Source: Chrysaora quinquecirrha | Taxonomy: Eukaryota; Cnidaria; Scyphozoa; Semaeostomeae; Pelagiidae | DNA length: 64,000 bases | Reading direction: 5' to 3' | NCBI GenBank assembly: GCA_014526335.1 | Contig: JACTAT010000044.1 | Span: 1,928,182-1,992,181 of the forward strand | In this document: positions 31,255 through 63,360 of the stretch, one piece after another | How the letters are laid out: every line of letters begins with the position of its first letter | Numbering within the stretch: position 1 is the first letter of the stretch | Position numbers and translations under genes: made by a program | Notes under the pieces: model-generated | Seen by the model: the letters and a program-made list of their open reading frames with translations, nothing else | Databases searched by the model: none | What the model was told of the DNA's origin: nothing

Positions 31255-31472
31255 AGAGTGCATTTTCGTCTTCGGGTAATAAATGCTTGATTTATTAGTA
31301 TATACCCCTCCCCCCAAAGTCAATGTTGCTTTCAGATGAAAAAAAAACAGGGACCAGGCACACAAAAAACGTCTTTACAGTCTTCAACATTGACTTTGGG
31401 GGGAAGGGGGTCCAAATATGACGAGAGAGACCCGGTTTCCGTAAGTGTCTCCTAACTTTTGTCCAGGATTGT
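31255..31472 (+). mobile_element. MITE at the left border of the tandem array (left end truncated)
   Basis: It is nearly identical to 63395-63615, including the internal inverted pair CCCAAAGTCAATGTTG / CAACATTGACTTTGG and the right terminus ending in TTTTGTCCAGGATTGT. The outer left terminal repeat seen in the other copy is missing here. The right end runs directly into the GTCTCTATTGG start of the array at 31471 and shares GT with it. Confidence 0.8.
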
Positions 31473-31746
31473 CTCTATTGGTTTTCAAGCACAGGATATC
31501 TTAGACTTTTAAGATTGTCACCTTTGCGGGATGTTTTATATCTGTGTAGGGTTATATGACATTTTCATGATTATAAATAAATTAACCTCCACAGTAATGA
31601 TATTTTAGAGAATTGTGACGTCAAATAAATGACAATTAAGGTAGGATGTCAGCCCTTTCGAGAAGTTGAGATTGAACAACTCCTCGTGCAACCAACTCTG
31701 CGTCTGCTATGTTTTGTCTTGTTTATTTAAATTTTCTATTATTCTG
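31471..31746 (+). mobile_element. Unit 0: left-end fragment of the tandem element
   Basis: It matches the first 276 bases of the intact units, including TGACGTCA at 31616-31623. It stops at ATTCTG, where the CACTC element begins. In intact units the next matching position found on the other side (35913) lies about 395 bases further on, so that part is deleted. Confidence 0.9.
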
Positions 31747-31935
31747 CACTCAAAAAATAAAGGTGCTCAAAAAAACCTCAAAGGGTTTTTCAACAGAGTA
31801 CATATATCGAACCCCTAAAGGTGCTCCGAAAAACCCTTTCAAATGGTTCTTCAAAAAACCCTTATCATGGGTTTTTGAAAAAACCCTCATGAAGGGTTTT
31901 TTGGAAAACCCTGAGGGTTTTTTGAAACACCTTTA

Positions 31936-32260
31936 GGGGTTCGATATATGTACTCAGGGTTTTTACCAAAAACCCTATAAAAAGGTTTTTCAGAGCACCT
32001 TCAGGGGTTTTATATGGCACCTTTAGGGGTTCGATATATGTACTCGGGGTTTTTACCAAAAACCCTATGAAAAGGTTTTTCAGAGCACCTTCAGGGGTTT
32101 TATAAGGCACCTTTAGGGTTCGATATATGTACTCAGGGTTTTTACCAAAACCCTATAAAAGGTTTCTCAGAGCGCCTTCAGGGGTTTCATATCGCACCTT
32201 TAGGGGTTCGATATACCGGGGGTTTTACCAGAAACCATAGAGCAGAAGAAGGTTTTCAAG
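31936..32260 (+). repeat. 90-bp tandem repeats inside the CACTC element
   Basis: GGGGTTCGATATATGTACTC recurs at about 31936, 32026 and 32116, with a degenerate copy near 32202. Each unit also holds an ACCAAAAACCCTATA and a CAGAGC(A/G)CCTTCAGGGG segment. The same phrase occurs once in reverse complement at about 31797-31825, so the left end is partly palindromic. Confidence 0.9.
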
Positions 32261-35912: not shown

Positions 35913-36906
35913 TGGGTTATCGAGAGAAACGGGAATTTCTAGAGCACACGTATACCGTATATGGAAGGAGCAAATGAATACCAAGGAAAAAAAAGCAGGA
36001 ACTGTCAATCGTGGAGGGCGGCCAGCCAAATTAACACAAAGAGAGAAGAGAAAGATTTTGCGACTTGTGATGGTTATGAGAGCCGAGCGGCCTAACTGGA
36101 CAATACGGCGACTGATGGAAAGAGCGAGTATTACCCACGTATCAAGAAGGACGATCACAACGCTTCTTAATGCAAATGGCTTTAACTACCTGCAGGCAAG
36201 GAAAAAGGGGCTTCTCAGTGACAAGGACCGCAAGAAACGAGTAGCATTTGCTAAGCACATTACAAGAAATTACCCTGAAGATGTCTGGAAGAAGACCATA
36301 GCATTCTATTTGGATGCAGTTGGTTTTGTTTATAAGAGAAATCCGTGTGATCAAGCATTGGCCCCAGCCGGTAGAGTCTGGCGCAAAAAGAGTGAGGGAC
36401 TCGCAAAAGGTTGTACGGCCAAGGGTGCGGTCTGTGGGACAGGTGGAAACTATTGTAAGTTTATTGTAGCAATAAGTTATCATAAAGGAGTCATTTGCTG
36501 TCAAAAGTACGACAAGATGAATGGAAAGTACTTTGCCGCTTTCCTAGAGGAAAAGTTTGAGAGCATAGTGCAAGCTGCAGGAAAGAATTATAGAGTTTGG
36601 GTGCAAGCGCAAAATAGCTCAGCTGCAAAGGCAGCGATGACCAGGGTGGACTCCGACCTGTTATCTATCCCACCGAGAAGCCCTGACATAAACCCGATAG
36701 AGAATTTGTTTTCAATTGCCAAGAAACGACTTGCCAGTGATGCTTTTGAAAGAGAGATTGTGAAAGAAACTAAGGAAGAGTTCAAACAAAGAATCATGCG
36801 CATACTCAGTGAAGTATCTATAGAGACTATAAACCGTATAATTGACTCAATGAACAAGAGAATGTTAACTATAACAAAATGTAAAGGAGATCGTATAAAA
36901 TATTAG
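35913..36906 (+). pseudogene. Unit 0: IS630/Tc1-mariner-like transposase, 5' truncated
   Basis: The frame joins the family at about residue 25 of the intact copies and stays open to the normal stop. The first helix of the N-terminal helix-turn-helix and the start codon are replaced by CACTC-element sequence. The frame continues leftwards into that element by chance, to 35854. The second helix-turn-helix, the first Asp, the PDINPIEN block and the C-terminal KGDRIKY tail are all present. As in the other copies that cover the site, the second catalytic Asp is missing. One difference from the others is a Tyr (NYRVW) where the rest have Ser. Confidence 0.85.
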
Positions 36907-37260
36907 ATTTTGACAGGTAACAGTAATTTCAAAAACCTTCTTAAACAGGAATTAAAGTTTTGGAGATGCCATAGAAACTTAAGCTTAACTACTCTTCTTT
37001 TGGATTCATGGTGCTTTTGCTAATAAAAATTACTTAAAGGAAAAGTTATTCAATCATTGACACTGCAGCAACAACTATTTTACCTTGTGTTTACCTTACA
37101 CATACACAGTGCTGATATGGATTGATAGTAGCACGGGGATAACAGCTAACCTTAAACTTGGAAGTAGAGTTGTGCGATGGACCATTTTGCTACCATGTCT
37201 AAAAACTGTACAGACATGAATGAAAGGCTGCCTTTTATGGGCATGGAAAAGAGTCAAGGG

Positions 37261-37500
37261 ACAGGTAAGCAACAGGTAAGCAACAGGTAAGCAACGGGTA
37301 AGCAAAAGAGTTGCATAGGGAACCGTGTAGAAATCAACAGGTAAGCACGGGTAAGCAACTTATTTTATAAAAACTTAGAATAAATCTTTATAAAATAAGT
37401 TGCTTACCCGTGCTTACCTGTTCATTTCTACACAATCCCCTATGCAATTCTTTTGCTTACCCGTTGCTTACCCGTTGCTTACCCGTTGCTTACCCGTTGC
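37261..37500. repeat. Unit 0: convergent palindrome with GGGTAAGC repeats, orientation A
   Basis: Left arm: four GGTAAGCAAC steps, several mutated to CAGGTAAGC, then GAGTTGCATAGGGAACCG. Right arm: the near reverse complement, with four GCTTACCCGTT steps. The loop region contains ACTTAGAATAAATC. It lies about 350 bases after the transposase stop and 220 bases before the Rep stop. The flanking stretches 36907-37260 and 37501-37720 are noncoding and conserved in all units. Confidence 0.9.
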
Positions 37501-37720
37501 ATGTTACATTATCATTATGCGTAAAGCCCGTACACTGAGAATATTGCATGAGTTGAGGAAACTCTGACTGGAAAAGATCATCTGTAGAACGCGCAAAGTT
37601 ATTGTCAATGCGCTGGAATTGTTTTCATTTAATATACGATTGACATGCAAAGTTTATTTATTTGCCAACATTATCAAAGAGGGTTTTATAAAATCTGAAA
37701 ATCTATCAGTCATCGCCTAG

Positions 37721-39051
37721 CTAAACAAGCTCTGCAAAACAGCGCTTGCATCTCGGCAGGCGCTTCTGCTCACTTTCTGGTATCTGGTGCGTGAATGCGA
37801 ATGTTTTCCACCTTGCATCCATCATCTCATTTTCTATGGCATCGGTGGTATTAAACTTGCCGATGAATGTTATCGGTGCCTTACTTGTAGCGAAGATGGG
37901 CGTGTCCTTGTCGAAGAGGATATCTTGTGCGTATGTTGACTTCGGTGCAGCAAAGTGTGGGCTTTGCCCCTCAAGCAGCAACAACATGTCTTTCCAAGCC
38001 AAAATTTCGTTAGAGTACCGGAAATCATTGAGAAAATAATTTCAGCATTTTCAGCTCCAATCCAAGCATAGCTTGTCGTGGCGGGATTTGTAAATGTTTT
38101 GAATATCTCATTAAGAGGGTCAAGGATGAACGTTTTCCCGCAATTTGCTGGCCCCGTTATCATTATGTTTCTATACCTTCCTCTTCCCCTCACCAGCAAC
38201 TCTCTTATAAAGCCAGCAAACATGTAGGCATTTATATCGTTATTTTTTGAGCATCTCTTTCGCACATGTAATCCACTGTCCGCGACAATCAACAGCGCAT
38301 TCACTTTTAATTTCTGCACAAACGCGATCCATTCTTGGCATGTTTCTTCTTTCTATTGTGGCCTTTGACTCTTCAACTTTCCAAGCAGAGCGAATTACTT
38401 CATTTAGAGCCTTTTCTGATTTGCCAAGCACAAAATTTGCAAGGTCAAGCTTGCCTTCATCTTTCTGTTCCTTTGCTAGGGCATAAAGCCCTGGCTCCTC
38501 GCGTATTTGATTTTTGACAAGAATCTCTGCAACATCCAAATTGGAGAGCCTGCGTCTTTTCTGGGGTTTTGATCCTCGTGGCTGCGGTTCATTTGCATCT
38601 TTCCGTCTTCCCTTGCTCTTTGTGGCTTTACTGGCCTTTGAGGTTTTCGGAGAAGAAACAGATGCCAAGTTTGGATGTCCCTCACTTTCTACGGCATTGC
38701 TATCCTCTTTGGTTACGTACCGATAGGCACTGTAATAGTCGTGGTGATTGTCATCCGAGAAATGCACTGATATGCCATGTTTTTCTTGAAGAAACCGCGT
38801 TACAGGCAACCAGCTTTCATTCCCACTTAGCTTGATGGCGAGATGATAGTGAAATCCTTCTTTTTGATGATTTTCTCGAGCACATACCCATTGCGTCACT
38901 TTTTCTTTGGACGTACCTTGATTGAAGCCCTCTGCAACAGCATTTGCAAAGACTGCCTGGAAGGAAACTGCTCCTCCTCTGCTCTGCTGTAAGTTACCAA
39001 ATATGTTTTGCGAACCGCACATTTATCAATTTCTCTAAACTCTTGGGCCAT
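37721..39051 (-). pseudogene. Unit 0: Rep (HUH + SF3 helicase), broken
   Basis: Alignable end to end with the intact Rep of unit 1. The reading frame is broken by single-base length changes near 38950 (just after the N-terminal motif), near 38245 (before the helicase domain) and near 38035 (next to Walker B). A stop at 37721 removes the last few residues. HUH motif, YVTK motif, basic linker and Walker A are still recognisable in the separate frames. It belongs to the same subtype as unit 2 (GNESW, EEPG, short C-terminus). Confidence 0.9.
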
Positions 39052-39720
39052 AAGGCGTTGAAATCGAAACGTTCACCTATCGCGTTGTGAATGATATACG
39101 AAAATATGGACATAGAGACAGTCTCTATTGGTTTTCAAGCACAGGATATCTTAGACTTTTAAGATTGTCACCTTTGCGGGATGTTTTATATCTGTGTAGG
39201 GTTATATGACATTTTCATGATTATAAATAAATTAACCTCCACAGTAATGATATTTTAGAGAATTGTGACGTCAAATAAATGACAATTAAGGTAGGATGTC
39301 AGCCCTTTCGAGAAGTTGAGATTGAACAACTCCTCGTGCAACCAACTCTGCGTCTGCTATGTTTTGTCTTGTTTATTTAAATTTTTCTATTATTCTGTAT
39401 TCAGGGATGTAAGCAAAGTCTAACAATGTTTTTTGTTATTCATTGTAACCAAGCTCATGATTTAACACCTTTTTTAAATTTACACTCATCTGATTGGTTA
39501 ATTTGTAATGTTGTCATAGGGATCGGATTTATGTTGTTCTCATAATGTAAGTTCGTTGGCTGTGTTGGAAATTGACAAAAAATGCTTGGAACTGTCAAGG
39601 CAAAGACGTGTATTAAGATATATGAAATTTTCTCTTGTTCTGCTGTTCTGTGTCAGCGATTGGGGCGATAAACGGTTTATCTATCATATTCACAATAATC
39701 AGGTTCAGATCGAAAACAAA
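39052..39720. promoter_or_regulatory. Shared upstream region between Rep (-) and transposase (+), units 0/1
   Basis: A divergent intergenic region of about 670 bases, conserved in every unit. It contains the unit junction (39112-39128), a perfect CRE palindrome TGACGTCA at 39266-39273, and a pyrimidine-rich CTGTATTCAG|G that could be a splice acceptor (about 39405). A possible donor is AAG|GTAGGA near 39288. A 5'-leader intron is therefore possible but unproven. Expression from both sides is inferred from gene orientation only. Confidence 0.5.
39112..39128. repeat. Unit 0/1 junction palindrome ATAGAGAC-A-GTCTCTAT
   Basis: Perfect 8-bp inverted repeat with a single A between. It is the best candidate for abutting element ends: unit homology begins exactly at GTCTCT at 31471 and 62019, where the left neighbours are foreign. 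Confidence 0.6.
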
Positions 39721-40785
39721 ATGGCCAGGAAGAGGGTGATAACTCCAGAACTACGTGCTTATGTAATTTTGAATCGAGATAAAAGTGCTACTGGGTTATC
39801 GAGAGAAACAGGAATTTCTAGAGCACACGTATACCGTATATGGAAGGAGCAAATGAATACCAAGGAAAAAAAAGCAGGAACTGTCAATCGTGGAGGGCGG
39901 CCAGCCAAATTAACACAAAGAGAGAAGAGAAAGATTTTGCGACTTGTGATGGTTATGAGAGCCGAGCGGCCTAACTGGACAATACGGCGACTGATGGAAA
40001 GAGCGAGTATTACCCACGTATCAAGAAGGACGATCACAAGGCTTCTTAATGCAAATGGCTTTAACTACCTGCAGGCAAGGAAAAAGGGGCTTCTCAGTGA
40101 CAAGGACCGCAAGAAACGAGTAGCATTTGCTAAGCATATTACAAGAAATTACCCTGAAGATGTCTGGAAGAAGACCATAGCATTCTATTTGGATGCAGTT
40201 GGTTTTGTTTATAAGAGAAATCCGTGTGATCAATCATTGGCCCCAGCCGGTAGAGTCTGGCGCAAAAAGAGTGAGGGACTCGCAAAAGGTTGTACGGCCA
40301 AGGGTGCGGTCTGTGGGACAGGTGGAAACTATTGTAAGTTTATTGTAGCAATAAGTTATCATAAAGGAGTCATTTGCTGTCAAAAGTACGACAAGATGAA
40401 TGGAAAGTACTTTGCCGCTTTCCTAGAGGAAAAGTTTGAGAGCATAGTGCAAGCTGCAGGAAAGAATTCTAGAGTTTGGGTGCAAGCGCAAAATAGCGCA
40501 GCTGCAAAGGCAGCGATGACCAGGGTGGACTCCGACCTGTTATCTATCCCACCGAGAAGCCCTGACATAAACCCGATAGAGAATTTGTTTTCGATTGCCA
40601 AGAAACGACTTGCCAGTGATGCTATTGAAAGAGGGATTGTGAAAGAAACTAAGGAAGAGTTCGAACAAAGAATCATGCGCATACTCAGTGAAGTATCTAT
40701 AGAGACTATAAACCGTATAATTGACTCAATGAACAAGAGAATGTTAACTATAACAAAATGTAAAGGAGATCGTATAAAATATTAG
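39721..40785 (+). CDS. Unit 1: IS630/Tc1-mariner-like transposase, 354 aa
   Basis: DNA-binding part: a first helix-turn-helix (about residues 7-45), a GGRP AT-hook-like linker (58-61), and a second helix-turn-helix (about 65-115). Catalytic part: first Asp at D158 (FYLDAVGF) and the PPRSPDINPIENLF block with E287, followed by a C-terminal KGDRIKY tail. Between them, where relatives carry a DGDPSQNS-like segment with the second Asp (my recollection of the family), this protein reads VQAQNS at 254-259. The second acid appears lost in every copy that covers the site. The start chosen is the ATG of MARKR, which is shared by all units. The longer open frame from 39556 lacks an ATG and is disrupted in units 3 and 4. 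It diverges from Rep and faces the palindrome. It could act as a DNA-binding protein rather than an active recombinase. Confidence 0.85.
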   Translation: MARKRVITPELRAYVILNRDKSATGLSRETGISRAHVYRIWKEQMNTKEKKAGTVNRGGRPAKLTQREKRKILRLVMVMRAERPNWTIRRLMERASITHVSRRTITRLLNANGFNYLQARKKGLLSDKDRKKRVAFAKHITRNYPEDVWKKTIAFYLDAVGFVYKRNPCDQSLAPAGRVWRKKSEGLAKGCTAKGAVCGTGGNYCKFIVAISYHKGVICCQKYDKMNGKYFAAFLEEKFESIVQAAGKNSRVWVQAQNSAAAKAAMTRVDSDLLSIPPRSPDINPIENLFSIAKKRLASDAIERGIVKETKEEFEQRIMRILSEVSIETINRIIDSMNKRMLTITKCKGDRIKY

Positions 40786-41140
40786 ATTTTGACAGGTAAC
40801 AGTAATTTCAAAAACCTTCTTAAACAGGAATAACAGTTTTGGAGATGCCATAGAAACTTAAGCTTAACTACTCTTCTTTTGGATTCATAGTGCTTTTGCT
40901 AATAGAAATTACTTAAAGGAAAAGTAATTCAATCATTGACACTGCAGCAACAACTATTTTACCTTGTGTTTACCTTACACGTACACAGTGCTGATATGGA
41001 TTGATAGTAGCACGGGGATAACAGCTAACCTTAAACTTGGAAGTAGAGTTGTGCGATGGACCATTTTGCTACCATGTCTATAAACTGTACAGACATGAAT
41101 GAAAGGCTGCCTTTTATGGGCATGGAAAAGAGTCAAGGGA

Positions 41141-41182
41141 CGGGTAAGCAACGGGTAAGCAACGGGTAAGCAACGGGTAAGC
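41141..41182 (+). repeat. Unit 1: left arm of the palindrome (GGGTAAGCAAC x4), cut by LINE
   Basis: Four 11-bp GGGTAAGCAAC steps precede the LINE 3' tail. The rest of the palindrome continues at 43842. The 355 bases before it (40786-41140) are the conserved noncoding 3' region of the transposase. Confidence 0.9.
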
Positions 41183-43841
41183 TTGTTTGTTTGTTTGTTT
41201 GTTAACTTATTTTATATCGATTCTCTAATTTCTAGCTTTCTACATACAAAATATACATAGGAAACTAATCTAAATCGATAACTAATAAATAAAATATATG
41301 TAATTATGTTAATCCATACTGACAAGCGTTGCAATTACAGTTTGGGCCATCCCACTTTTTAATCATGTGTTTAAAACTGTTCAAATTTTCGGCTGATTTT
41401 ATTTGATTCGGCAGGCCATTCCATATTTGCGGACCCAAAGATCGAAGGCTATTAGAGCCAAAGGTGACCTGATTTGGTCTGTAATGCTGTAAGTCATTGG
41501 GGTTTCGCGATGAGTAGATAGATGATTTTATTTTAAAAATATCATGCATGAAAGATGGGTTTATATTTTTCAATGTCTTAAAAACCTCGATACAAAGAAC
41601 CCTTAGACGAGAAACATGCATAGTACACCGTTCTGACTTCATCAGTAATTCACTGTAAGAGGTTTGGTTGTCAGTGTATAGAAATCTCAGGGCACGTTCT
41701 TGAATCTTTTCAATTTTTTGCAAAGCTTTAGATGACGAGAAATACCAAACAAGAGGGCAATAATCAAAATTTGAATAAACGAAACTTTGGATAAGGATTT
41801 TCCTTTCATTAAAACCAATAAATTGTTTGAGTCTTTTCAAGACATTGAGTTGTGATGCAGCTTTTCTGCAAAGTTCAGAGATATGGTGTTCAAAATTTAG
41901 CTTATAATCTAGCTGTATACCCAGCAATTTGACAGTTTCTTCTGATTTGATCTCTTTGCCTTGGATATTAAAAATCTCTCCACTAGTATTTCTTTGATCC
42001 TTGCTAATGAGGAGTGCGTGAAATTTTTCTGGATGGGCTATCATTTGATTTTGGTTCAGCCAATTCAAAGCTACCCCAGCTTCTTCTTCTAGTACCTCAA
42101 TCAAATTTGATAGAGTCTTAGAAAAATAAGCTAGAGTGTTATCGTCAGCATAATTGTGTAATGTTGCTCGGTTAATGAACAAAATAGATCGTTTATATAA
42201 ATATTGAAGAGGATAGGACCCAAAACCGAGCCTTGAGGCACCCCTGACAGAATTGTTTGGAAAGAGCTATATGTATTATTGATTCTAACAGACTGTTTCC
42301 GCCGTTTTAAGTAAGAGTAAATAAGGACCAGAGCATTTTCATCAAAACCATAGGCATGTAATTTGGCTATAAGTAAATCGTGTGGAATGCAATCGAAGGC
42401 TTTTGATAGATCCATGAGGATAGCTCCTACAATATTATCATTATCAAGTTTGACCCTCCATTCTTCTATCATTCTTATCAAAACATGCTGTGTGCCATAT
42501 GCTCTTCTATAGGCAGCAATGAAAAGTGAAAGGGTTTCATCCAAGAAAGGGATAAGTTGGTTTTTCAGAATCTTTTCATATATTTAGAATGCTGACTGGA
42601 CGAAAGTTTCGCTCAACTGTACGATTTGCCTCCCCTTTATCCAACGGACATACCGCAGCTCGTTTTCCATTTTCTGGGAACCTATAGTTGCGTATGCTGC
42701 TGTTAATGGCATCTGTTAAAGGGGCTGCAAGGTCGTCTGCAGCCAAAAGCACAAGTTTTGGTGGTATTTGATCTTCTCCCGTTGATTTCCTACCGTCTAA
42801 AGACCTTAGCTGTTCCCTAACCTGACAGACCTGTACCTCATGAAAGGAAAATGAAATGAAGTTGTTTTCAGGATTTTGAATAATAGCTAAAATACTTGGG
42901 TGGCTTTTGTATTTTTGAAGTATCAGCCTAATGATTTGCCGATCATCATCAGTTTCAACCGTATCTGCAATGTTGCAAGGTTGTTCACCGCTAGACTTTT
43001 CTACTATATTGATGTAATGATCGTTAAATATTTCGGTTAGCTGTTGATCGTCGGTTACGATTTCATTATTCTTGACTAATGATATATCATTACCAGCTAA
43101 GCCTCCTTTGTTGGAGAGAAAAGGTTTGACAAGGTCCCAGAATGCTCGATTCGAAACAAGTCCATTTTCAGTTGCTTGTTTGAAATGCTGTTTAATTGCT
43201 TTTTTTCTCAGAGAGACACATTTATTTCTTTGTCGTTTGAAATTTAGTTCATTTTCTTTTGTAGGACTTTTCTTAAATCTCTTTTGTAGCCTCGTTCTGG
43301 TATAAATTCCCTTTTTTAATTCCCTAGTCATGAAAGGAGCACTATTTCCTCATAACATTTTTGTTTTTAGAGGGGCATGTTTGTCAACCAATTTTCGAAA
43401 AGTACAGACAAGATCATTATAAGCTTGATCAGGATCGTCAGGAGCACTAAAATTCGCCAGCTTTATATCTGATAAAAAATTTTCGGCATCAAACTTTTTG
43501 TAGCTGCGATACTTGATTACCTTAGGCTTAAGTCTAGGAAGATGGGACTTCATAACCGTTATGACAAGGCTGTGGTAGTCACTTAAGCCCGTTTCAAACA
43601 CAGAGGTTTTTTGGAAAGATCTCGGCCGATTTGTTAGGATGACATCAATGGAAGAACTGCTGTACTTGGTAAAGCATGTTTTAGCAGTCACCAAATTTGA
43701 TAGCCCAAAAACGTCACGAAAAGAAACTAGTTTACAGTGGCCGGTGTCCTGTCGGTTTAGGGTATCGATGTTGATATCCCCCATTACAATTACGTTATCG
43801 TATTTGTCTAAAGCAGAGTTTAAGGTAGTTGAAAGATCGCT
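41183..43841 (-). mobile_element. 5'-truncated LINE (CR1/Jockey-type) inserted in the palindrome
   Basis: On the minus strand this element has, in order, the end of an apurinic-type endonuclease domain, a reverse transcriptase, and a 3' tail of CAAA repeats (AACAAACAAACAAACAAG next to GCTTACCC). The left flank is GGTAAGC and the right flank resumes the palindrome at AAAGAATTGC. No clear target-site duplication is visible. It is 5'-truncated, as expected for target-primed reverse transcription. Confidence 0.85.
41304..43841 (-). pseudogene. LINE endonuclease-reverse transcriptase ORF2 remnant
   Basis: 43350-43841 carries the C-terminal half of the endonuclease (GDINID and a SDYHSLV catalytic-His-type motif). 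42576-43331 is the linker and fingers region. 42131-42544 holds reverse transcriptase motifs (SKAFDCIPHDLL, SGVPQGSVLGP). 41304-42182 holds the NYADD active-site motif, thumb and C-terminus. The frame is broken by an in-frame TGA near 43347 and by frameshifts near 42560 and 42165, so it is inactive. The clade is CR1/Jockey-like by motif style. An exact assignment needs a tree. Confidence 0.85.
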
Positions 43842-51530: not shown

Positions 51531-51767
51531 CGGGTAAGCAACGGGTAAGCAACGGGTAAGCAACGGGTAAGCAAAGAATTGCATAGGGGATTGTGTAGAA
51601 ATGAACGGGTAAGCACGGGTAAGCAACTTATTTTATAAAGATTTATTCTAAGTTTTTATAAAATAAGTTGCTTACCCGTGCTTACCCGTTGATTTCTACA
51701 CGGTTCCCTATGCAACTCTTTGCTTACCCGTTGCTTACCCGTTGCTTACCCGTTGCTTACCCGTTGC
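51531..51767. repeat. Unit 3: convergent palindrome, orientation B (inverted)
   Basis: The left arm here reads GAATTGCATAGGGGATTG and the right arm CGGTTCCCTATGCAACTC, the reverse of units 0, 1, 2 and 4. The central loop TTTATAAAGATTTATTC is likewise the exact reverse complement of the loop in the other units. Four GGGTAAGCAAC steps flank each side. The inverted segment spans about 51575-51720, while the sequence outside the palindrome keeps normal orientation. Confidence 0.93.
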
Positions 51768-51975
51768 ATGTTACATTATCATTATGCGTAAAGCCCGTAC
51801 ACTGAGAATATTGCATGAGTTGAGGAAACTCTGACTGGAAAAGATCATCTGTAGAACGCGCAAAAAAGTTATTGTCAATGCGCTGGAATTGTTTTCATTT
51901 AATATACGATTGACATGCAAAGTTTATTTATTTGCCAACATTATCAAAGAGGGTTTTATAAAATCTGAAAATCTA

Positions 51976-53321: not shown

Positions 53322-53972
53322 AAGGCGTTGAAATCGAAACGTTCACCTATCGCGTTGTGAATGATATACGAAAATATGGACATAGAGACAGTCTCTATTG
53401 GTTTTCAAGCACAGGATATCTTAGACTTTTAAGATTGTCACCTTTGCGGGATGTTTTATATCTGTGTAGGGTTATATGACATTTTCATGATTATAAATAA
53501 ACTAACCTCCACAGTAATGATATTTTAGAGAATTGTGACGTCAAATAAATGACAATTAAGGTAGGATGTCAGCCCTTTCGAGAAGTTGAGATTGAACAAC
53601 TCCTCGTGCAACCAACTCTGCGTCTGCTATGTTTTGTCTTGTGTATTTAAATTTTCTATTATTCTGTATTCAGGGATGTAAGCAAAGTCTAACAATGTTT
53701 TTTGTTATTCATTGTAACCAAGCTCATGATTTAACACCTTTTTTAAATTTACACTCATTTGATTGGTTAATTTGTAATGTTGTCATAGGGATCGGATTTA
53801 TGTTGTTCTCATAATGTAAGTTCGTTGGCTGTGTTGGAAATTGACAAAAAATGCTTGGAACTGTCAAGGCAAAGACGTGTATTAAGAGATTCTGCTGTTC
53901 TGTGTCAGCGATTGGGGCGATAAACGGTTTATCTATCATATTCACAATAATCAGGTTCAGATCGAAAACAAA
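53322..53972. promoter_or_regulatory. Shared upstream region, units 3/4
   Basis: Junction palindrome 53382-53398 and TGACGTCA at 53536-53543. It carries the same net 17-bp deletion as unit 3. No other gene-like content. Confidence 0.5.
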
Positions 53973-55037
53973 ATGGCCCGGAAGAGGGTGATAACTCCAG
54001 AACTACGTGCTTATGTAATTTTGAATCGAGATAAAAGTGCTACTGGGTTATCGAGAGAAACAGGAAATTCTAGAGCACACGTATACCGTATATGGAAGGA
54101 GCAAATGAATACCAAGGGAAAAAAAGCAGGAACTGTCAATCGTGGAGGGCGGCCAGCCAAATTAACACAAAGAGAGAAGAGAAAGATTTTGCGACTTGTG
54201 ATGGTTATGAGAGCCGAGCGGCCTAACTGGACAATACGGCGACTGATGGAAAGAGCGAGTGTTACCCACGTATCAAGAAGGACGATCACAACGCTTCTTA
54301 TTGCAAATGGCTTTAACTACCTGCAGGCAAGGAAAAAGGGGCTTCTCAGTGACAAGGACCGCAAGAAACGAGTAGCATTTGCTAAGCACATTACAAGAAA
54401 TTACGCTGAAGATGTCTGGAAGAAGACCATAGCATTCTATTTGGATGCAGTTGGTTTTGTTTATAAGAGAAATCCGTGTGATCAAGCATTGGCCCCAGCC
54501 GGTAGAGTCTGGCGCAAAAAGAGTGAGGGACTCGCAAAAGGTTGTACGGCCAAGGGTGCGGTCTGTGGGACAGGTGGAAACTATTGTAAGTTTATTGTAG
54601 CAATAAGTTATCATAAAGGAGTCATTTGCTGTCAAAAGTACGACAAGATGAATGGAAAGTACTTTGCCGCTTTCCTAGAGGAAAAGTTTGAGAGCATAGT
54701 GCAAGCTGCAGGAAAGAATTCTAGAGTTTGGGTGCAAGCGCAAAATAGCGCAGCTGCAAAGGCAGCGATGGCCAGGGTGGACTCCGACCTGTTATCTATC
54801 CCACCGAGAAGCCCTGACATAAACCCGATAGAGAATTTGTTTTCGATTGCCAAGAAACGACTTGCCAGTGATGCTTTTGAAAGAGGGATTGTGAAAGAAA
54901 CTAAGGAAGAGTTCAAACAAAGAATCATGCGCATACTCAGTGAAGTACCTATAGAGACTATAAACCGTATAATTGACTCAATGAACAAGAGAATGTTAAC
55001 TATAACAAAATGTAAAGGAGATCGTATAAAATATTAG
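53973..55037 (+). CDS. Unit 4: IS630/Tc1-mariner-like transposase, 354 aa
   Basis: Fully open from MARKR to KGDRIKY. Shares with unit 3 an Ile-to-Asn change in the first helix-turn-helix (ETGNSRAH) and Ile for Asn in LLIANGF. It shares with units 3 and 5 NTKGKK, SVTHV and NYAEDV. First Asp at 158 and the PDINPIEN block are present. The second Asp is missing (VQAQNS). The helix change may weaken DNA binding. The ATG chosen is the only one compatible with the upstream deletion. Confidence 0.85.
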   Translation: MARKRVITPELRAYVILNRDKSATGLSRETGNSRAHVYRIWKEQMNTKGKKAGTVNRGGRPAKLTQREKRKILRLVMVMRAERPNWTIRRLMERASVTHVSRRTITTLLIANGFNYLQARKKGLLSDKDRKKRVAFAKHITRNYAEDVWKKTIAFYLDAVGFVYKRNPCDQALAPAGRVWRKKSEGLAKGCTAKGAVCGTGGNYCKFIVAISYHKGVICCQKYDKMNGKYFAAFLEEKFESIVQAAGKNSRVWVQAQNSAAAKAAMARVDSDLLSIPPRSPDINPIENLFSIAKKRLASDAFERGIVKETKEEFKQRIMRILSEVPIETINRIIDSMNKRMLTITKCKGDRIKY

Positions 55038-55392
55038 ATTTTGACAGGTAACAGTAATTTCAAAAACCTTCTTAAACAGGAATAACAGTTTTGGAGATGC
55101 CATAGAAACTTAAGCTTAACTACTCTTCTTTTGGATTCATAGTGCTTTTGCTAATAGAAATTACTTAAAGGAAAAGTAATTCAATCATTGACACTGCAGC
55201 AACAACTATTTTACCTTGTGTTTACCTTACACGTACACAGTGCTGATATGGATTGATAGTAGCACGGGGATAACAGCTAACCTTAAACTTGGAAGTAGAG
55301 TTGTGCGATGGACCATTTTGCTACCATGTCTATAAACTGTACAGACATGAATGAAAGGCTGCCTTTTATGGGCATGGAAAAGAGTCAAGGGA

Positions 55393-55629
55393 CGGGTAAG
55401 CAACGGGTAAGCAACGGGTAAGCAACGGGTAAGCAAAGAGTTGCATAGGGAACCGTGTAGAAATCAACGGGTAAGCACGGGTAAGCAACTTATTTTATAA
55501 AAACTTAGAATAAATCTTTATAAAGTAAGTTGCTTACCCGTGCTTACCCGTTCATTTCTACACAATCCCCTATGCAATTCTTTGCTTACCCGTTGCTTAC
55601 CCGTTGCTTACCCGTTGCTTACCCGTTGC
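55393..55629. repeat. Unit 4: convergent palindrome, orientation A
   Basis: Four GGGTAAGCAAC steps on the left, four GCTTACCCGTT steps on the right, and orientation as in units 0-2. Its length equals that of the inverted version in unit 3 (237 bp), so the two differ by inversion and not by size. Flanks 55038-55392 and 55630-55837 are the conserved noncoding 3' regions. Confidence 0.92.
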
Positions 55630-55837
55630 ATGTTACATTATCATTATGCGTAAAGCCCGTACACTGAGAATATTGCATGAGTTGAGGAAACTCTGACTGG
55701 AAAAGATCATCTGTAGAACGCGCAAAAAAGTTATTGTCAATGCGCTGGAATTGTTTTCATTTAATATACGATTGACATGCAAAGTTTATTTATTTGCCAA
55801 CATTATCAAAGAGGGTTTTATAAAATCTGAAAATCTA

Positions 55838-57185
55838 TCAGTCATCGCCTAGCAAAACAAGCTCTGCAAAACAGCGCTTGCATCTCGGCAGGCGCTTCTG
55901 CTCACTTTCTGGTATCTGGTGCGTGAATGCGAATGTTTTCCACCTTGCATCCATCATCTCATTTTCTATGGCATCGGTGGTATTAAACTTGCCGATGAAT
56001 GTTATCGGTGCCTTACTTGTAGCGAAGATGGGCGTGTCCTTGTCGAAGAGGATATCTTGTGCGTATGTTGACTTCGGTGCAGCAAAGTGTAGGCTTTGCC
56101 CCTCAAGCAGCAACAACATGTCTTTCCAAGCCAAAATTTCGTTAGAGTACCGGAAATCATTGAGAAAAATAATTTCAGCATTTTCAGCTCCAATCCAAGC
56201 ATAGCTTGTCGTGGCGGGATTTGTAAATGTTTTGAATATCTCATTAAGAGGGTCAAGGATGAACGTTTACCCGCAATTTGCTGGCCCCGTTATCATTATG
56301 TTTCTATACTTTCCTCTTCCCCTCACCAGCAACTCTCTTATAAAGCCAGCAAACATGTAGGCATTTATATCGTTTTTCTTGAGCATCTCTTTCGCACATG
56401 TAATCCACTGTCCGCGACAATCAACGGCGCATTCACTTTTAATTTCTGCACAAACGCGATCCATTCTGGGCATGTTTCTTCTTTCTATTGTGGCCTTTGA
56501 CTCTTCAACTTTCCAAGCAGAGCGAATTACTTCATTTAGAGCCTTTTCTGATTTGCCAAGCACAAAATTTGCAAGGTCAAGCTTGCCTTCATCTTTCTGT
56601 TCCTTTGCTAGGGCATAAAGCCCTTGCTCCTCGCGTATTTGATTTTTGACAAGAATCTCTGCAACATCCAAATTGGAGAGCCTGCGTCTTTTCTGGGGTT
56701 TTGATCCTCGTGGCTGCGGTTCATTTGCATCTTTCCGTCTTCCCTTGCTCTTTGTGGCTTTACTGGCCTTTGAGGTTTTCGGAGAAGAAACAGATGCCAA
56801 GTTTGGATGTCCCTCACTTTCTACGGCATTGCTATCCTCTTTGGTTACGTACCGATAGGCACTGTAATAGTCGTGGTGATTGTCATCCGAGAAATGCACT
56901 GATATGCCATGTTTTTCTTGAAGAAACCGCGTTACAGGCAACCAGCTTTTATTCCCACTTAGCTTGATGGCGAGATGATAGTGAAGTCCTTCTTTTTGAT
57001 GATTTTCTCGAGCACATACCCATTGCGTCACTTTTTTCTTTGGACGTACCTTGATTGAAGCCCTCTGCAACAGCATTTGCAAAAGACTGCCTGGAAGGAA
57101 ACCGCTCCTCCTCTGCTCTGCTGTAAGTTACCAAATATATTTTGCGAACCGCACATTTATCAATTTCTCTAAACTCTTGGGCCAT
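55838..57185 (-). pseudogene. Unit 4: Rep, frameshift and nonsense
   Basis: A one-base lengthening of a T run near 57035 breaks the frame just before the HUH motif. A single-base change creates a stop at 56267-56269, exactly at the Walker A lysine codon (NCG-stop). The rest of the helicase remains open in the same frame to the normal C-terminus. Unlike the homopolymer breaks of the other copies, the nonsense change is a substitution and is unlikely to be a length-calling error. Confidence 0.9.
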
Positions 57186-57852
57186 AAGGCGTTGAAATCG
57201 AAACGTTCACCTATCGCGTTGTGAATGATATACGAAAATATGGACATAGAGACAGTCTCTATTGGTTTTCAAGCACAGGATATCTTAGACTTTTAAGATT
57301 GTCACCTTTGCGGGATGTTTTATATCTGTGTAGGGTTATATGACATTTTCATGATTATAAATAAATTAACCTCCACAGTAATGATATTTTAGAGAATTGT
57401 GACGTCAAATAAATGACAATTAAGGTAGGATGTCAGCCCTTTCGAGAAGTTGAGATTGAACAACTCCTCGTGCAACCAACTCTGCGTCTGCTATGTTTTG
57501 TCTTGTGTATTTAAATTTTCTATTATTCTGTATTCAGGGATGTAAGCAAAGTCTAACAATGTTTTTGTTATTCATTGTAACCAAGCTCATGATTTAACAC
57601 CTTTTTTAAATTTACACTCATCTGATTGGTTAATTTGTAATGTTGTCATAGGGATCGGATTTATGTTGTTCTCATAATGTAAGTTCGTTGGCTGTGTTGG
57701 AAATTGACAAAAAATGCTTGGAACTGTCAAGGCAAAGACGTGTATTAAGATATATGAAATTTTCTTTTGTTCTGCTGTTCTGTGTCAGCGATTGGGGCGA
57801 TAAACGGTTTATCTATCATATTCACAATAATCAGGTTTAGATCGAAAACAAA
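57186..57852. promoter_or_regulatory. Shared upstream region, units 4/5
   Basis: Junction palindrome 57246-57262 and TGACGTCA at 57400-57407. It lacks the deletion of units 3 and 4. A T replaces C shortly before the ATG, so the upstream frame meets a stop (GGTTTAG at 57835). Confidence 0.5.
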
Positions 57853-58902
57853 ATGGCCAGGAAGAGGGTGATAACTCCAAAAGTACGTGCTTATGTAATT
57901 TTGAATCGAGATAAAAGTGCTACTGGGTTATCGAGAGAAACAGGAATTTCTAGAGCACACGTATACCGTATATGGAAGGAGCAAATGAATACCAAGGGAA
58001 AAAAAGCAGGAACTGTCAATCGTGGAGGGCGGCCAGCCAAATTAACACAAAGAGAGAAGAGAAAGATTTTGCGACTTGTGATGGTTATGAGAGCCGAGCG
58101 GCCTAACTGGACAATACGGCGACTGATGGAAAGAGCGAGTGTTACCCACGTATCAAGAAGGACGATCACAACGCTTCTTAATGCAAATGGCTTTAACTAC
58201 CTGCAGGCAAGGAAAAAGGGGCTTCTCAGTGACAAGGACCGCAAGAAACGAGTAGCATTTGCTAAGCACATTACAAGAAATTACGCTGAAGATGTCTGGA
58301 AGAAGACCATAGCATTCTATTTGGATGCAGTTGGTTTTGTTTATAAGAGAAATCCGTGTGATCAAGCATTGGCCCCAGCCGGTAGAGTCTGGCGCAAAAA
58401 GAGTGAGGGACTCGCAAAAGGTTGTACGGCCAAGGGTGCGGTCTGTGGGACAGGTGGAAACTATTGTAAGTTTATTGTAGCAATAAGTTATCATAAAGGA
58501 GTCATTTGCTGTCAAAAGTACGACAAGATGAATGGAAAGTACTTTGCCGCTTTCCTATAGGAAAAGTTTGAGAGCATAGTGCAAGCTGCAGGAAAGAATT
58601 CTAGAGTTTGGGTGCAAGCGCAAAATAGCGCAGCTGCAAAGGCAGCGATGGCCAGGGTGGACTCCGACCTGTTATCTATCCCACCGAGAAGCCCTGACAT
58701 AAACCCGATAGAGAATTTGTTTTCGATTGCCAAGAAACGACTTGCCAGTGATGCTTTTGAAAGAGGGATTGTGAAAGAAACTAAGGAAGAGTTCAAACAA
58801 AGAATCATGCGCATACTCAGTGAAGTACCTATAGAGACTATAAACCGTATAATTGACTCAATGAACAAGAGAATGTTAACTATAACAAAATGTAAAGGAG
58901 AG
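57853..58902 (+). pseudogene. Unit 5: transposase, nonsense and lost 3' end
   Basis: Open from MARKR to an in-frame TAG at 58558-58560 (Glu codon changed, FAAFL-stop). The remaining catalytic part with PDINPIEN continues in frame to 58902. There the normal sequence stops about 15 bases before the stop codon and runs into the anomalous block. It shares KGKK, SVTHV and NYAEDV with units 3 and 4. Confidence 0.9.
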
Positions 58903-61901
58903 GTTTTTAAGAAAATAAGGGGAAATTTTTCAAATTTTTCAACCCCAAAACCCTTTGTTTTCCCCAAAAACGGAAAGAATTTTCCCTTTTTTTTTCAAAG
59001 GGGGTAAGGCTCCCCAAAACCAAATTTTTTTATTTATTTTCCCTTTTTCCCTCCTAAAATTTTTAAAAATGGGAAAAAGGTTTTAATAAAGGCAAAATTT
59101 TTTAAAGGGTTTTCCCGAAAGGATAATTGTTTTTAAAATTTTTCATAATTTTAAATTTTGGGGTTTAAAATTTTTTTGTTTAAATGTTAATTTTTTCTTT
59201 TTTTTCCAAAATTTTTTGAAATGTATTCTTGAACCTTTTGGGTTTGGGTTTAATGCTTTTTTGGGGAAAATTTTTCTTTGGGGGAAATTTTTTTTGGGAT
59301 TTATTTTTTTCCCGTTTTTTTTTCCTTTTTAACCTTATTTTTAAAGGGCAACCTTAAACCTTTTTAAAAAGGGAAATTTTTTGTTTTAAATTTTGAAAAT
59401 TTAAAAAGAAAAAACTTTGGGGTTTGAAAAATCGCCCAAGAAAAATTTTGCCATTTTTATTTTCCCAAATTAAAATTTTGAAAATTTTCCTAACTTTTTA
59501 CCAAAGGGTTAATTAGAAATTTGGATTTACTTTGGAAACGTTTTTTTTGGGTAAAAAATTTTGGGGCCCCCTTTTTGGGTTTTGGGAAAAATTTAAAAAG
59601 TCCCAAATTTCAAAAGGGAAAAAAGTTTTTTGTTTGCTTAAATCGTTTAAATCTTTTTTTAAAAAAAAACCTTTAAAAATTTTTTGGGTGAAAAATTTTA
59701 AATTTCTTTTTTTAAACTTTTAAAATTCTTTTATGTTTGTTAAATTTCCTTTTATTTAAACCCTAAAAATTTTCTTTTAAAATTTTTGTTTTGGCCCTTT
59801 TTCAATTTTAAAAGCCCAAAAAATTTAAAGCATAATTGGGAAACCTTTAAAAGGGTTTTATTTAAAAACGAAAATTTTTGTATCGTAAAAGTTTTTAAAA
59901 GGTTACTGGGAAATTTTATTTCAAACCTTTAAAAGGGTTTTAACAACCCTTTTACCGGGTTTTAAAATTGCCAAAAGTTGGGCTCTGGGAGGGGCTTTTT
60001 GGAAACTTTGGGTTTTTTCCCTCCCCAAATTTTTTGCCCCGGAAAAAAACCCGAAAATGGGTCCTTCGGAAAAAGGGGGTTTAAAATTCCGGGTTTCGTT
60101 TGGGGGTTTTAAAGGAAATTTTTAAGATTTGGTTTTTTTCCTTTTATAAAAACCTTTTAAAATTTTTAAAAAAAAAAAAATTTTTTTAATTTTTTCCCCT
60201 TTTTTTCCCCCCCCTTTTCTAAAACCCATTTCCCCTTTTTTTCTTTTCCCTTCTTCCTTTACGTTCTTTAAACCCTTTTCTTTTTCGAAAAAGGCATGGT
60301 TTTTTTTCCCTTTGTGGGCCCCTTTCCTGGGGATTTATTTTTAGGCCGAAAATTTGGGCCCCCTTTTGGGTTTCCCTTTTTTTCTTTCTTTCGTTTTTTT
60401 TCCCCTTTTTTAAAGGGTTTTAAAAAAAACCCTTTTGGGTTCCCTCCCAGCTTGCCCCTTTGGGTTGGGGGGTTTTCGGGGCCCAAACCTTTTTTCCTTT
60501 TTCGGAAGAAAACCCCCTTTTTATTTCGGGTGGGATTTGGGCCTGAATGGGCCTTTTCTTGGAAACCCGGATTTTTTTCGAAAGGGATTTAAAATTTCCC
60601 TTTGGACCGGGCCCCCTTTGGGCCCTTTTTGGGTCCAAAGGCCCCTTTCAAAAATCTTGGGGAAAAAAAATTTTTCGCTTTTAATTAACCAAAAGTAAGC
60701 TTTTTTTTTAAATTTTTGTAAAATTTTTTTAAGGTGGGGTTTTCCCAAAAATTTTTAAAAAATTTCCCTATTTTTTTACCCAAAAACTTTTAAATTTACC
60801 CAGAATTTGGGAATCTTTTCAATTTTAAAATTTCCCGGGAAAAAATTTTACCCAATTTAAAAAAGGGACCCTTTCGGGAGTTTTTTTAAATTTCCTTTGA
60901 AAATTTTTTCAAAGGGCTTTTTATTTTTTTTTTATTTTTAAAAAAATTTTGGGAAGGAAAATTTTTTTTTTTCTCTGTTTCCTTTTTTTCAAACCCCTTT
61001 TTTTGGTTTTTTTTTCAAAATTAACTTTTGGGGCGTTTCTGGGGGGGTTTTAAATTTTTTTTTTTTTTTGGTTGGGTTTGGGTTTCCCCTTTTAGGCCCG
61101 AAAAAAAGATGCCCCTTATGCCCAAATTTTAAAAGGAAAAATTTTTTGGGTTTAAGAAACAGGGAACTGGGTTGGGAAACAAAAAACCAAAAAAGCAGGT
61201 TTTTAAGGGAAAGGCCCAAACAAATTTCAGGAAGGAAAAAGGGTTTTCCCGGGGTTTTTAGACATTGGAAATTTCCCTTTTGGAAAACTACCAATTTAAG
61301 GGTTTTTTTTAAAAATTTGGGAAAAAACCCCCCTTTTGGGGGGTAACCAAAAAGTTTTAAAGGGGCCTTTAAAATAAAATTTTTTGGGATAAGGGTTTAA
61401 ATAAAAGTCCCAAAAATGCTGGGAAAATTTTTGGGAAAAATTGGGGCGGGAAAGTTTAGGTTTTCAAAAAACTAAAAAAAGGTATTTTTTCCCCGTTTTA
61501 AGGAATTTTAGAAAAAATTCCCAAAAGAAAATTTTGGGAAAAAGGGGGAAAAAAGAAAAAGGGGGTTTCTTTCGGAAGTTTAAAAGAAAACCCGTTTAAA
61601 ACCAATTGGGTTTTAAAAATTTTGTAAAATTAAAAATTTAAAAATTTTACAGGAAAGTAAAAATTAAAAAAATTTTTGATATGAACAAAAATTTTTAAAA
61701 AATTTTTAAAAATCTTAAAAAATTTTAATTTAAGGTTTTTAAACCCCTTTAAATTTTTCAATAAAAATTCCGGGGAAATTCAAAACTTTTAAAAAAAGGA
61801 AAATTATTTTAAAAGAATGAAAAATTTTTTGGTTTTGTCAAGGAAGGGGTAAACGGTAACCCTTTAAACAAAATTGTCGTGAAAAATAGGAAAGGGTTTA
61901 A
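58903..61901. other. Anomalous homopolymer-rich block, probably unreliable sequence
   Basis: For 3 kb the sequence is made almost wholly of short runs (AAAA, TTTT, CCCC, GGGG). It resembles nothing else in the window. It begins inside one copy of the element and ends inside another part of it. Where about 1.68 kb of clean element sequence is expected, 3.0 kb is found. The texture suggests a low-quality read tail incorporated in the assembly. No gene is called, and the frames here are not credible. Confidence 0.7.
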
Positions 61902-62014
61902 GATCCTCGTGGCTGCGGTTCATTTGCATCTTTCCATCTTCCCTTGCTCTTTGTGGCTTTACTGGCCTTTGAGGTTTTCGGAGAAGAAACAGATGCCAAG
62001 TTTGGATGTCCCTC
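61902..62014 (-). pseudogene. Internal Rep fragment
   Basis: 113 bases matching the Rep linker region (the basic, Lys-rich part) in minus orientation. On its left is the anomalous block. On its right it joins, after GGATGTCCCTC, directly to GATTGTCTCTATTGG, skipping the Rep N-terminus. A deletion junction or misjoin. Confidence 0.85.
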
Positions 62015-62616
62015 GATTGTCTCTATTGGTTTTCAAGCACAGGATATCTTAGACTTTTAAGATTGTCACCTTTGCGGGATGTTTTATATCTGTGTAGGGT
62101 TATATGACATTTTCATGATTATAAATAAATTAACCTCCACAGTAATGATATTTTAGAGAATTGTGACGTCAAATAAATGACAATTAAGGTAGGATGTCAG
62201 CCCTTTCGAGAAGTTGAGATTGAACAACTCCTCGTGCAACCAACTCTGCGTCTGCTATGTTTTGTCTTGTGAATTTAAATTTTCTATTATTCTGTATTCA
62301 GGGATGTAAGCAAAGTCTAACAATGTTTTTGTTATTCATTGTAACCAAGCTCATGATTTAACACCTTTTTTAAATTTACACTCATCTGATTGGTTAATTT
62401 GTAATGTTGTCATAGGGATCGGAATTATGTTGTTCTCATAATGTAAGTTCGTTGGCTGTGTTGGAAATTGACAAAAAATGCTTGGAACTGTCAAGGCAAA
62501 GACGTGTATTAAGATATATGAAATTTTCTCTTGTTCTGCTGTTCTGTGTCAGCGATTGGGGCGATAAACGGTTTATCTATCATATTCACAATAATCAGGT
62601 TCAGATCGAAAACAAA
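62015..62616. promoter_or_regulatory. Unit 6: upstream region of transposase
   Basis: It begins GATT-GTCTCTATTGG (unit start at 62019). The preceding GATT matches the end of the border MITE at 31467-31470. TGACGTCA lies at 62164-62171. The Rep half of the divergent region is missing here. Confidence 0.55.
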
Positions 62617-63360
62617 ATGGCCAGGAAGAGGGTGATAACTCCAGAAATACGTGCTTATGTAATTTTGAATCGAGATAAAAGATCTACTGGGTTATCGAGA
62701 GAAACAGGAATTTCTAGAGCACACGTATACCGTATATGGAAGGAGCAAATGAATAGCAAGGGAAAAAAAGCAGGAACTGTCAATCGTGGAGGGCGGCCAG
62801 CCAAATTAACACAAAGAGAGAAGAGAAAGATTTTGCGACTTGTGATGGTTATGAGAGCCGAGCGGCCTAACTGGACAATACGGCGACTGATGGAAAGAGC
62901 GAGTATTACCCACGTATCAAGAAGGACGATCACAACGCTTCTTAATGCAAATGGCTTTAACTACCTGCAGGCAAGGAAAAAGGGGCTTCTCAGTGACAAG
63001 GACCGCAAGAAACGAGTAGCATTTGCTAAGCACATTACAAGAAATTACCCTGAAGATGTCTGGAAGAAGACCATAGCATTCTATTTGGATGCAGTTGGTT
63101 TTGTTTATAAGAGAAATCCGTGTGATCAAGCATTGGCCCCAGCCAGTAGAGTCTGGCGCAAAAAGAGTGAGGGACTCGCAAAAGGTTGTACGGCCAAGGG
63201 TGCGGTCTGTGGGACAGGTGGAAACTATTGTAAGTTTATTGTAGCAATAAGTTATCATAAAGGAGTCATTTGCTGTCAAAAGTACGACAAGATGAATGGA
63301 AAGTACTTTGCCGCTTTCCTAGAGGAAAAGTTTGAGAGCATAGTGCAAGCTGCAGGAAAG
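62617..63360 (+). pseudogene. Unit 6: transposase, 3' truncated by MITE
   Basis: Open from MARKR for 248 residues, through both helix-turn-helix segments and the first Asp, to QAAGK. There the MITE at 63361 replaces the VQAQNS and PDINPIEN parts. Transposase sequence does not resume after the MITE, so this is the right edge of the array. Private changes include RST near the N-terminus and NSKGKK. Confidence 0.9.

Follow-up and report, generated by a model that had tools for sequence, protein, structure and literature searches.

The 64,000-nucleotide stretch of the Chrysaora quinquecirrha genome analyzed here (contig JACTAT010000044.1, positions 1,928,182 to 1,992,181; hereafter the window) carries a tandem array at 35913–58901, in which four complete units of about 3.86 kb and additional partial ones were resolved by self-comparison and by BLAST of the window with the separate pieces of one unit. 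Every unit combines a gene for a replication protein (Rep) on the minus strand with a Tc1/IS630-type transposase gene on the plus strand; the units are arranged head-to-tail, and the two genes share one divergence region and one downstream palindrome. These comparisons confirmed an earlier note on this DNA, which had described at least four complete head-to-tail units with diverging genes that converge on one palindrome. The span given there, 31471–63360, does contain the array, but it also takes in fragments at 31472–31752 and 61894–63361 that unrelated DNA separates from the array; its left border coincides with the edge of one copy of an end cassette, here termed A (31245–31471), and it stops just before another (63362–63614). 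We consider it likely that the array is the decayed derivative of a mobile element that fuses a Tc1-type transposase, a parvovirus-like Rep and an origin in the order A – transposase> – origin – <Rep – A, and that multiplies by the cycle proposed below.

The complete units, bounded by palindromes, are located at 37501–41139, 44037–47678, 47906–51529 and 51768–55391, with partial units at 35913–37260 (plus strand; the transposase from codon 24 onward, with its 3' region) and 55630–58901; compared piece by piece, BLAST identities to the matching part of the second complete unit range from 96.7 to 100%. The period of 3.86 kb has one exception, between the first and second complete units, where palindrome J1 (left part 41140–41182, right part 43839–44036) is split by an insertion foreign to the element (41183–43838, minus strand), with open reading frames at 41304–42182 and 42576–43331 and TTTG repeats at its borders; these frames matched no Pfam family, and the insertion is therefore called LINE-like (long interspersed nuclear element) by eye only. 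The other palindromes are J0 (37261–37500, with iterons), J2 (47679–47905, with three instead of four left iterons), J3 (51530–51767) and J4 (55392–55629, composed of four iterons, two iterons, an AT stem-loop, two iterons and four iterons). One of the five full-length Rep copies, encoding 448 amino acids at 44245–45591, remains open from end to end; the frame is broken in the copies at 37706–39051 (99.1% identity, three gap positions) and at 48111–49458, 51976–53321 and 55838–57185 (one gap each), all on the minus strand. The transposase frame is complete in three plus-strand copies (39721–40785, 46259–47323 and 53973–55037, the last with 354 amino acids), broken by one gap at 50111–51174, and truncated at nucleotide 1049 in the copy at 57853–58901. 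Outside the array, the left A cassette (plus strand, 96.5% identical to A of a sister array on contig C2) lacks its first ~28 nucleotides and is joined to the unit-body fragment at 31472–31752 (plus strand), which represents the 5' side of the transposase and is 99% identical to 45661–45942; the rearranged fragment at 61894–63361 consists of a Rep piece followed by the transposase side up to nucleotide 745, and the right A cassette (plus strand, 98.4% identical to A of the C2 array) is complete, with Tc1-like terminal repeats followed by TA (right flank GGATTG|TAGTATC). The earlier note had allowed for an assembly artefact; assembly duplication is unlikely, since the units carry private substitutions and indels, one palindrome harbors the LINE-like insertion, and another has an inverted core.

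The Rep, already called HUH-SF3 in the earlier note, belongs to the parvovirus type of HUH–superfamily 3 (SF3) replication proteins, an assignment supported here by Parvo_NS1 matches in 22 of 40 Rep relatives and by a predicted fold that resembles Rep68 and Rep40 of adeno-associated virus (AAV) and B19 proteins. VIA-align covers mostly residues 163–448, so that the Pfam matches, together with the HxH motif and the alignment by Foldseek, are what supports the HUH part of the assignment. The Rep sequence had no match in PDB, and its profile found seven weak PDB matches, none of them a Rep (best E 0.079); no Rep relatives were found in GTDB genomes or IMG/VR by short-pattern scans, which can miss relatives. 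Protein searches matched 626 Rep-like proteins, 530 transposase-like proteins and, with a further seed, 881 proteins, with 120 listed for each search; the source names include Paramuricea clavata (P0042), an octocoral. Two of the matched proteins, P0033 and P0129, are encoded on one shared contig of 1,693,682 bp, which is telling for linkage. Contigs of equal size were also tried as a sign of linkage and gave a weak signal, with four lengths shared against a mean of 1.65 for shifted lengths and 8 of 120 shifts performing as well (classes of 3.5–5 kb or >20 kb).

The transposase was identified by PF13358 and PF01498 matches above cut-off, corresponding to a DDE_3-type RNase H-like domain and a helix-turn-helix (HTH) DNA-binding region; its predicted fold matches Mos1 (E 9e-10) and the Sleeping Beauty core (TMt 0.77), and its profile matches Sleeping Beauty at 8e-15. 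These results support a transposase of the Tc1/mariner (IS630) type, as previously proposed. Relatives show DD34E spacing in 90 of the 90 cases where both motifs were located; in the window, the motif of the second catalytic aspartate (Asp) is deleted in all six copies that cover the site, and the DDE triad is incomplete there. As a single query the transposase found no relatives in IMG/VR by a short-pattern scan, which can miss them; the transposase profile recovered 18 distant loci with 24–37% identity in the same type of scan.

The two genes are linked throughout the window's own assembly (328 Mb, 740 contigs), which contains at least 97 Rep and at least 119 transposase matches; each of these searches scored only the best candidates. 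All but two of 30 Rep loci (L029 and L048) have a transposase-family match within 1.5 kb, 28 in total and 23 of 25 when the window is left aside, and the match at L040 spans only 32 residues; reciprocally, a Rep-family match was found within the same distance of 26 of 30 transposase loci, or of 18 of 22 beyond the window. The possibility that the genes occur only separately elsewhere, which the earlier note had named as a refutation, is thus answered in the negative. Outside the window, a transposase match lies at most 3 kb from 57 of 90 Rep matches, and from 42 of 67 Rep clusters (11 of these 67 with at least two Rep matches), compared to an expectation of ~0.003 per Rep. The orientation of the pairs is strongly biased: among 72 pairs at most 2 kb apart outside the window, 54 are convergent, 18 divergent, and none have both genes on the same strand. 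The genes have also diverged together, with a correlation between Rep and transposase divergence of r 0.87 across 26 loci (a value reached in 0 of 2000 permutations) and of r 0.63 across 12 representatives (1 of 2000), the latter being partly non-independent (L019 and L024 represent the window array, and L030, L037 and L045 a single lineage).

The ends of the element were placed where the similarity between relatives at different sites stops. This comparison yields a single-copy anatomy of A – transposase> – palindrome – <Rep – A with a length of ~4 kb, in which the cassette A, ~0.21–0.27 kb long, stands in direct orientation at both ends of the element and carries Tc1-like ends (CAATCCTGG.CAAAA) at both of its own ends. 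L042 together with the left flank L049 has 228-bp A cassettes at both ends, direct and 100% identical, with CAATCCTGG.CAAAA repeats and TA outside both; L053 is a complete single copy with A at both ends and TA on both sides; L054/L036 is likewise complete and flanked by TA on both sides, with its second A altered in the first ~31 nucleotides; and L051/L032 has the same form with one terminal base changed. A search with an A-cassette expression across all loci and the window returned 34 rows (TA/AGA 15, AGA/other 8, TA/other 5, AGA/AGA 4, other/other 2), from which eight false short matches and one duplicate start were removed by eye. The remaining 25 distinct full cassettes comprise 15 flanked by TA and AGA on opposite sides, one with TA and an altered inner side, four with AGA on both sides, which correspond to array junctions, and five without TA on the outer side; in these loci, which had been selected via Rep or transposase, no cassette among the 25 has TA on both sides. 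TA is therefore present at 16 of 21 outer A ends, against a background TA frequency of 0.069; the P value of 4e-15 is nominal because some ends belong to the same element. Two arrays also end at TA (L056 on C424 at the left, L061 on C2 at the right). In the window, TA is kept only at the right A, and the AGA that adjoins this cassette (at 63362) is coincidental, being part of the transposase sequence. An A end was found upstream of 17 of the 20 transposase loci examined (not at L075, L081 and L084). Twelve A sequences from about nine lineages share a common inner plan, a C-run with CAATGTT followed by AACATTG with a G-run; the interrupted G-run of the L029 cassette was not caught, and A of L053 showed no BLAST similarity to A of four other lineages. 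We take A to be the transposon end; by its position it might speculatively also serve as promoter of both genes. There are 439 genomic matches to the A-core pattern TCAATGTTG-N30-58-CAACATTGA, including the cassettes of full elements, and none in a reversed control; some of these cores are on contigs without a listed Rep or transposase match, for example C1:1341694. Four A cores with ~1.95-kb spacing at C1:2280812–2286738, likewise on a contig without a listed match, may represent an internally deleted form in tandem arrangement.

The palindrome has the appearance expected of a Rep-specific origin, and this function is predicted for it. Two palindromes tested for folding gave z values of -25.4 and -28.95, with none of 200 shuffles as low for either, and the palindrome on the 3' side of Rep scores at least 23 in 18 of 24 loci, compared to a maximum of 16 among 31 control stretches. 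Its layout consists of up to four iterons, ~35 nucleotides, up to two iterons and an AT-rich stem-loop, followed by the mirror image, with up to 12 iterons in total. The eight iteron types are lineage-specific (e.g., ACGGGTAAGCA, ACGAGTCACCA, ACGAGTCAGCA, ACGGTTAACCC and ACGCGTAACAC), and six of the eight contain ACGNGTNA. In single-copy insertions the palindrome is internal, between the two genes, and the ends of the element are the A cassettes. A reading of the palindrome as the element end did not hold up; the ends lie within the region that the earlier note had placed upstream of both genes. The core of J3 is inverted relative to J0, J1, J2 and J4, i.e., in one of five window palindromes; no inversion appeared in 11 further comparisons within lineages, for which L022 and L029 could not be assessed. 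The single inverted core suggested an AAV-like terminal hairpin, a candidate that was dropped since single copies place the palindrome between the genes and the 11 comparisons yielded no second inversion.

There is good support for a linked, TA-inserting element that carries an iteron palindrome. An ordinary Tc1 transposon could instead have inserted once beside an endogenous Rep gene, the pair then being copied by segmental duplication; arrays and repeats do exist, and unequal exchange commonly gives rise to tandem duplications. This explanation is extremely improbable: the pair recurs in constant order and orientation, with A ends, iteron palindrome and correlated divergence, at Rep identities from ~44 to 100%, and a single accident would not yield lineage-specific iterons and TA-flanked single copies. 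The units could alternatively be integrated genomes of a parvovirus-like virus with small single-stranded DNA, with the transposase acting as integrase and the capsid missing or supplied in trans; the Parvo_NS1 matches and the AAV- and B19-like Rep model would fit, and the longest source contigs of the Rep and transposase protein lists, which peak at 3.75–4.25 kb or the length of one unit (22 of 118 and 36 of 175, respectively), could be virus-sized molecules. We regard this viral reading of the units as quite unlikely, given that the palindrome is internal in single copies and the short-pattern Rep scans of IMG/VR, which can miss relatives, found none. Moreover, neither the window units nor L053 showed a further long frame when their open reading frames were inspected for a capsid gene: window-unit frames other than Rep and transposase pieces do not exceed 137 amino acids, and no third frame stands out in L053, where the others, judged by position, overlie Rep, transposase or A or reach outside. 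Of the features that define Parvoviridae, the element thus shows the HUH-SF3 replication protein, but neither a capsid gene, as judged from open reading frames, nor the terminal hairpin telomeres.

The window array can be compared to its sister array on C2, whose Rep is ~98% identical to the window Rep, whose transposase retains the second Asp (L020/L021), and whose unit junctions contain A. In contrast, all five junctions of the window array (39112–39128, 45652–45668, 49519–49535, 53382–53398 and 57246–57262) lack A and read ATAGAGA-CAG-TCTCTAT; the sequences on either side are those that flank A in the C2 array, with three bases left between them. The joins at the side fragments (31471 and 62014) differ from these five. 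The CAG remnant looks like a footprint of A excision, a reading that presumes what is generally understood of Tc1-type excision; the same junction would also result if a dimer circle lost A-body-A and the remainder closed. With the second catalytic Asp absent from all six transposase copies and A absent from all five unit junctions, the window array appears to be a dead, decayed derivative of the element. The earlier note had considered a domesticated replicon; this was not borne out, as several lineages retain open frames for both genes together with the anatomy of a mobile element, and the copies in the window give the appearance of decay rather than of a new use. As separate observations, the C2 array contains ~566 bp between Rep and A (L021, 887–1452) that are not present in the window array, and a distant lineage (44% Rep identity) has an array with four open Reps at a spacing of 4224–4228 bp (C185:98188–116213), which is probably very recent since its four Reps score identically.

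The most economical reading of this anatomy is a cycle of replication followed by integration of A-(body-A)n. A circle of one A plus the body would form; Rep would bind the iterons, nick the origin, and replicate the circle, presumably in rolling-circle mode, into further circles or head-to-tail concatemers; the transposase would then cut two A cassettes at their outer ends and insert A-(body-A)n at TA, with n=1 giving rise to single copies and higher n to tandem arrays. Non-autonomous spread is probable for cassettes of A alone or for internally deleted forms. In the window, A may have been lost from a unit junction, leaving ATAGAGA-CAG-TCTCTAT, and the transposase may have lost its second catalytic Asp; the A-less unit would then have been amplified to an array that became fixed and is now decaying. 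The division of labor suggested in the earlier note, Rep for amplification and the transposase for the ends, fits the linkage of the two genes at many loci, the HUH-SF3 Rep, the Tc1/mariner transposase, and the Tc1-like ends at TA.

Rep itself could be the actual engine of mobility, by rolling-circle transposition from the palindrome, and could produce the arrays and carry out the integration as proposed for AAV, with the transposase only assisting; the window array was amplified despite a transposase without the second Asp, and hairpin processing by Rep could have caused the inverted core of J3. The probability of this variant is low, as single copies and two array ends are located at TA with Tc1-type terminal repeats, the signature of a transposase, and the inverted core is confined to one of five window palindromes. 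It is also unlikely that arrays grow by host unequal recombination only and that Rep, no longer replicating anything, is now a passenger kept by past selection; many Rep matches contain stops and one group of copies lacks constraint, as this explanation would have it, but Rep frames remain open in many lineages, the ratio of non-synonymous to synonymous substitutions (dN/dS) is 0.31 in two pairs (window copy vs. C2 copy; L025 vs. L028), and the iteron palindromes are conserved, which argues for function in the recent past.

Several points weigh against the proposed element and its cycle. The element is known here from genome sequence, and unequal exchange could also produce tandem arrays. TA is missing at five of the 21 outer A ends, among them one end of array L020 and one of array L030, and the inner A ends abut AGA instead of TA, although cutting there is needed for the footprint and for the integration of a one-A circle. 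Partner matches are missing at some loci outside the window: 33 of 90 Rep matches lacked a transposase match within 3 kb, in searches limited to the best-scoring candidates, and 4 of 22 transposase loci (L072, L073, L078 and L088) have no Rep at a distance of up to 1.5 kb. Six of 24 loci (L022, L028, L029, L033, L036 and L048) have no palindrome scoring above the controls, although L028 and L033 do carry iteron arms. Finally, the Rep copies of the L042 group show no constraint, with dN/dS values of 0.87, 1.21 and 2.85 based on few changes.

Cut-and-paste transposons are generally thought to multiply via host repair and replication; if the proposed cycle is correct, coupling of cutting and pasting to an element's own replication protein and origin would provide another route of multiplication. 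The odds lean modestly toward a eukaryotic mobile element of a new class, termed a “replicating transposon,” in which a Tc1-type transposon would have captured a parvovirus-type Rep and origin, and which would amplify as circles or concatemers, use direct A cassettes as ends in the manner of long terminal repeats, insert in any multiple of the unit, shed A as non-autonomous copies, and be widespread among eukaryotes. Such an element would link DDE transposons to parvovirus-type replicons, bear on transitions in either direction between small DNA viruses and transposons, and possibly explain why mobile DNA occurs in tandem arrays. Judged by the numbers of matched proteins, the family is large, and its anatomy predicts circles, iteron binding and TA-flanked concatemers.

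Among known systems, Tc1/mariner elements such as Sleeping Beauty and Mos1 share the HTH and DDE fold, the DD34E spacing seen in relatives, terminal inverted repeats and the TA target, and the terminal repeats of A presumably correspond to Tc1-type ends. In Tc1/mariner elements the transposase is the only gene and the element measures about 1–3 kb; in contrast, the present element includes Rep and an origin-like palindrome within the same ends, extends over ~4 kb, is bounded by two direct A cassettes, and forms tandem arrays. Helitrons are eukaryotic mobile elements that likewise combine an HUH endonuclease with a helicase; the present element differs by its parvovirus-type SF3-like helicase, by TA insertion, and by a DDE transposase encoded separately, in addition to its terminal inverted repeats. 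The Rep model matches SF3 helicases; no search was aimed at SF1, the Helitron helicase type. Circular Rep replicons, such as CRESS replicons or rolling-circle plasmids, replicate as circles from an origin with flanking iterons; of these features, iteron palindromes with eight iteron types were observed in the present family.

Searches of open-licence PMC papers found none that describes this element layout. The nearest principle is that of Teratorn, described as a piggyBac-herpesvirus fusion of ~180 kb with herpesvirus genes, for which rolling-circle concatemers are proposed to allow the integration of a single unit with a transposon copy on each side (PMC10175614). As far as that account goes, both systems fuse a cut-and-paste transposon to a virus-type replicon and follow a concatemer logic; in contrast to Teratorn, the present element has a length of ~4 kb and two genes, with a Tc1-type transposase, an HUH-SF3 Rep, an iteron palindrome and transposase-free end cassettes. 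An element of Tuber melanosporum similarly holds Rep and transposase genes together inside one repeat bounded by terminal inverted repeats (TIRs); this fungal element has a geminivirus-like Rep, 37-bp TIRs, no obvious target duplication and broken transposase frames, and the relevant section describes no origin palindrome for it (Liu et al., 2011; PMC3198968). The same section lists parvovirus-like repeats of invertebrates, namely an acorn-worm element, DENSOV_HM of Hydra, and PIVE/PEVE of planarians (PMC3198968). They resemble the present element in that a parvovirus- or papillomavirus-related replication protein is repeated in invertebrate genomes; they are described there as virus-derived, with a coat protein domain in the acorn-worm element, and the section mentions no transposase. 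DENSOV_HM, compared by its description only, could be a relative of the present element.

Other parts of the window contain features of a different kind. Two adjacent minus-strand frames of 787 and 217 amino acids (1240–4219) look by eye like a Polinton-type DNA polymerase; the 787-amino-acid frame matched no Pfam family and nothing in PDB, and among the four polymerase-like or LINE-like frames only that at 3566–4219 had Pfam matches, three of them, all below cut-off. These frames are followed by a 500-bp N gap (4257–4756) and by ~20 kb of a degenerate TTAG-type repeat with strand changes and an interspersed, recurring GCAAGCATAGCTTGTATG-like motif (4810–26762), including CTAA-type stretches at ~10.4–11.6 kb and 24.7–26.8 kb. 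Just before the array, short tandem repeats occur at 28112–28407, 28721–29561, 29610–30324 and 31829–32236 (20 bp, a 427-bp duplication, 16 bp and ~90 bp, respectively).

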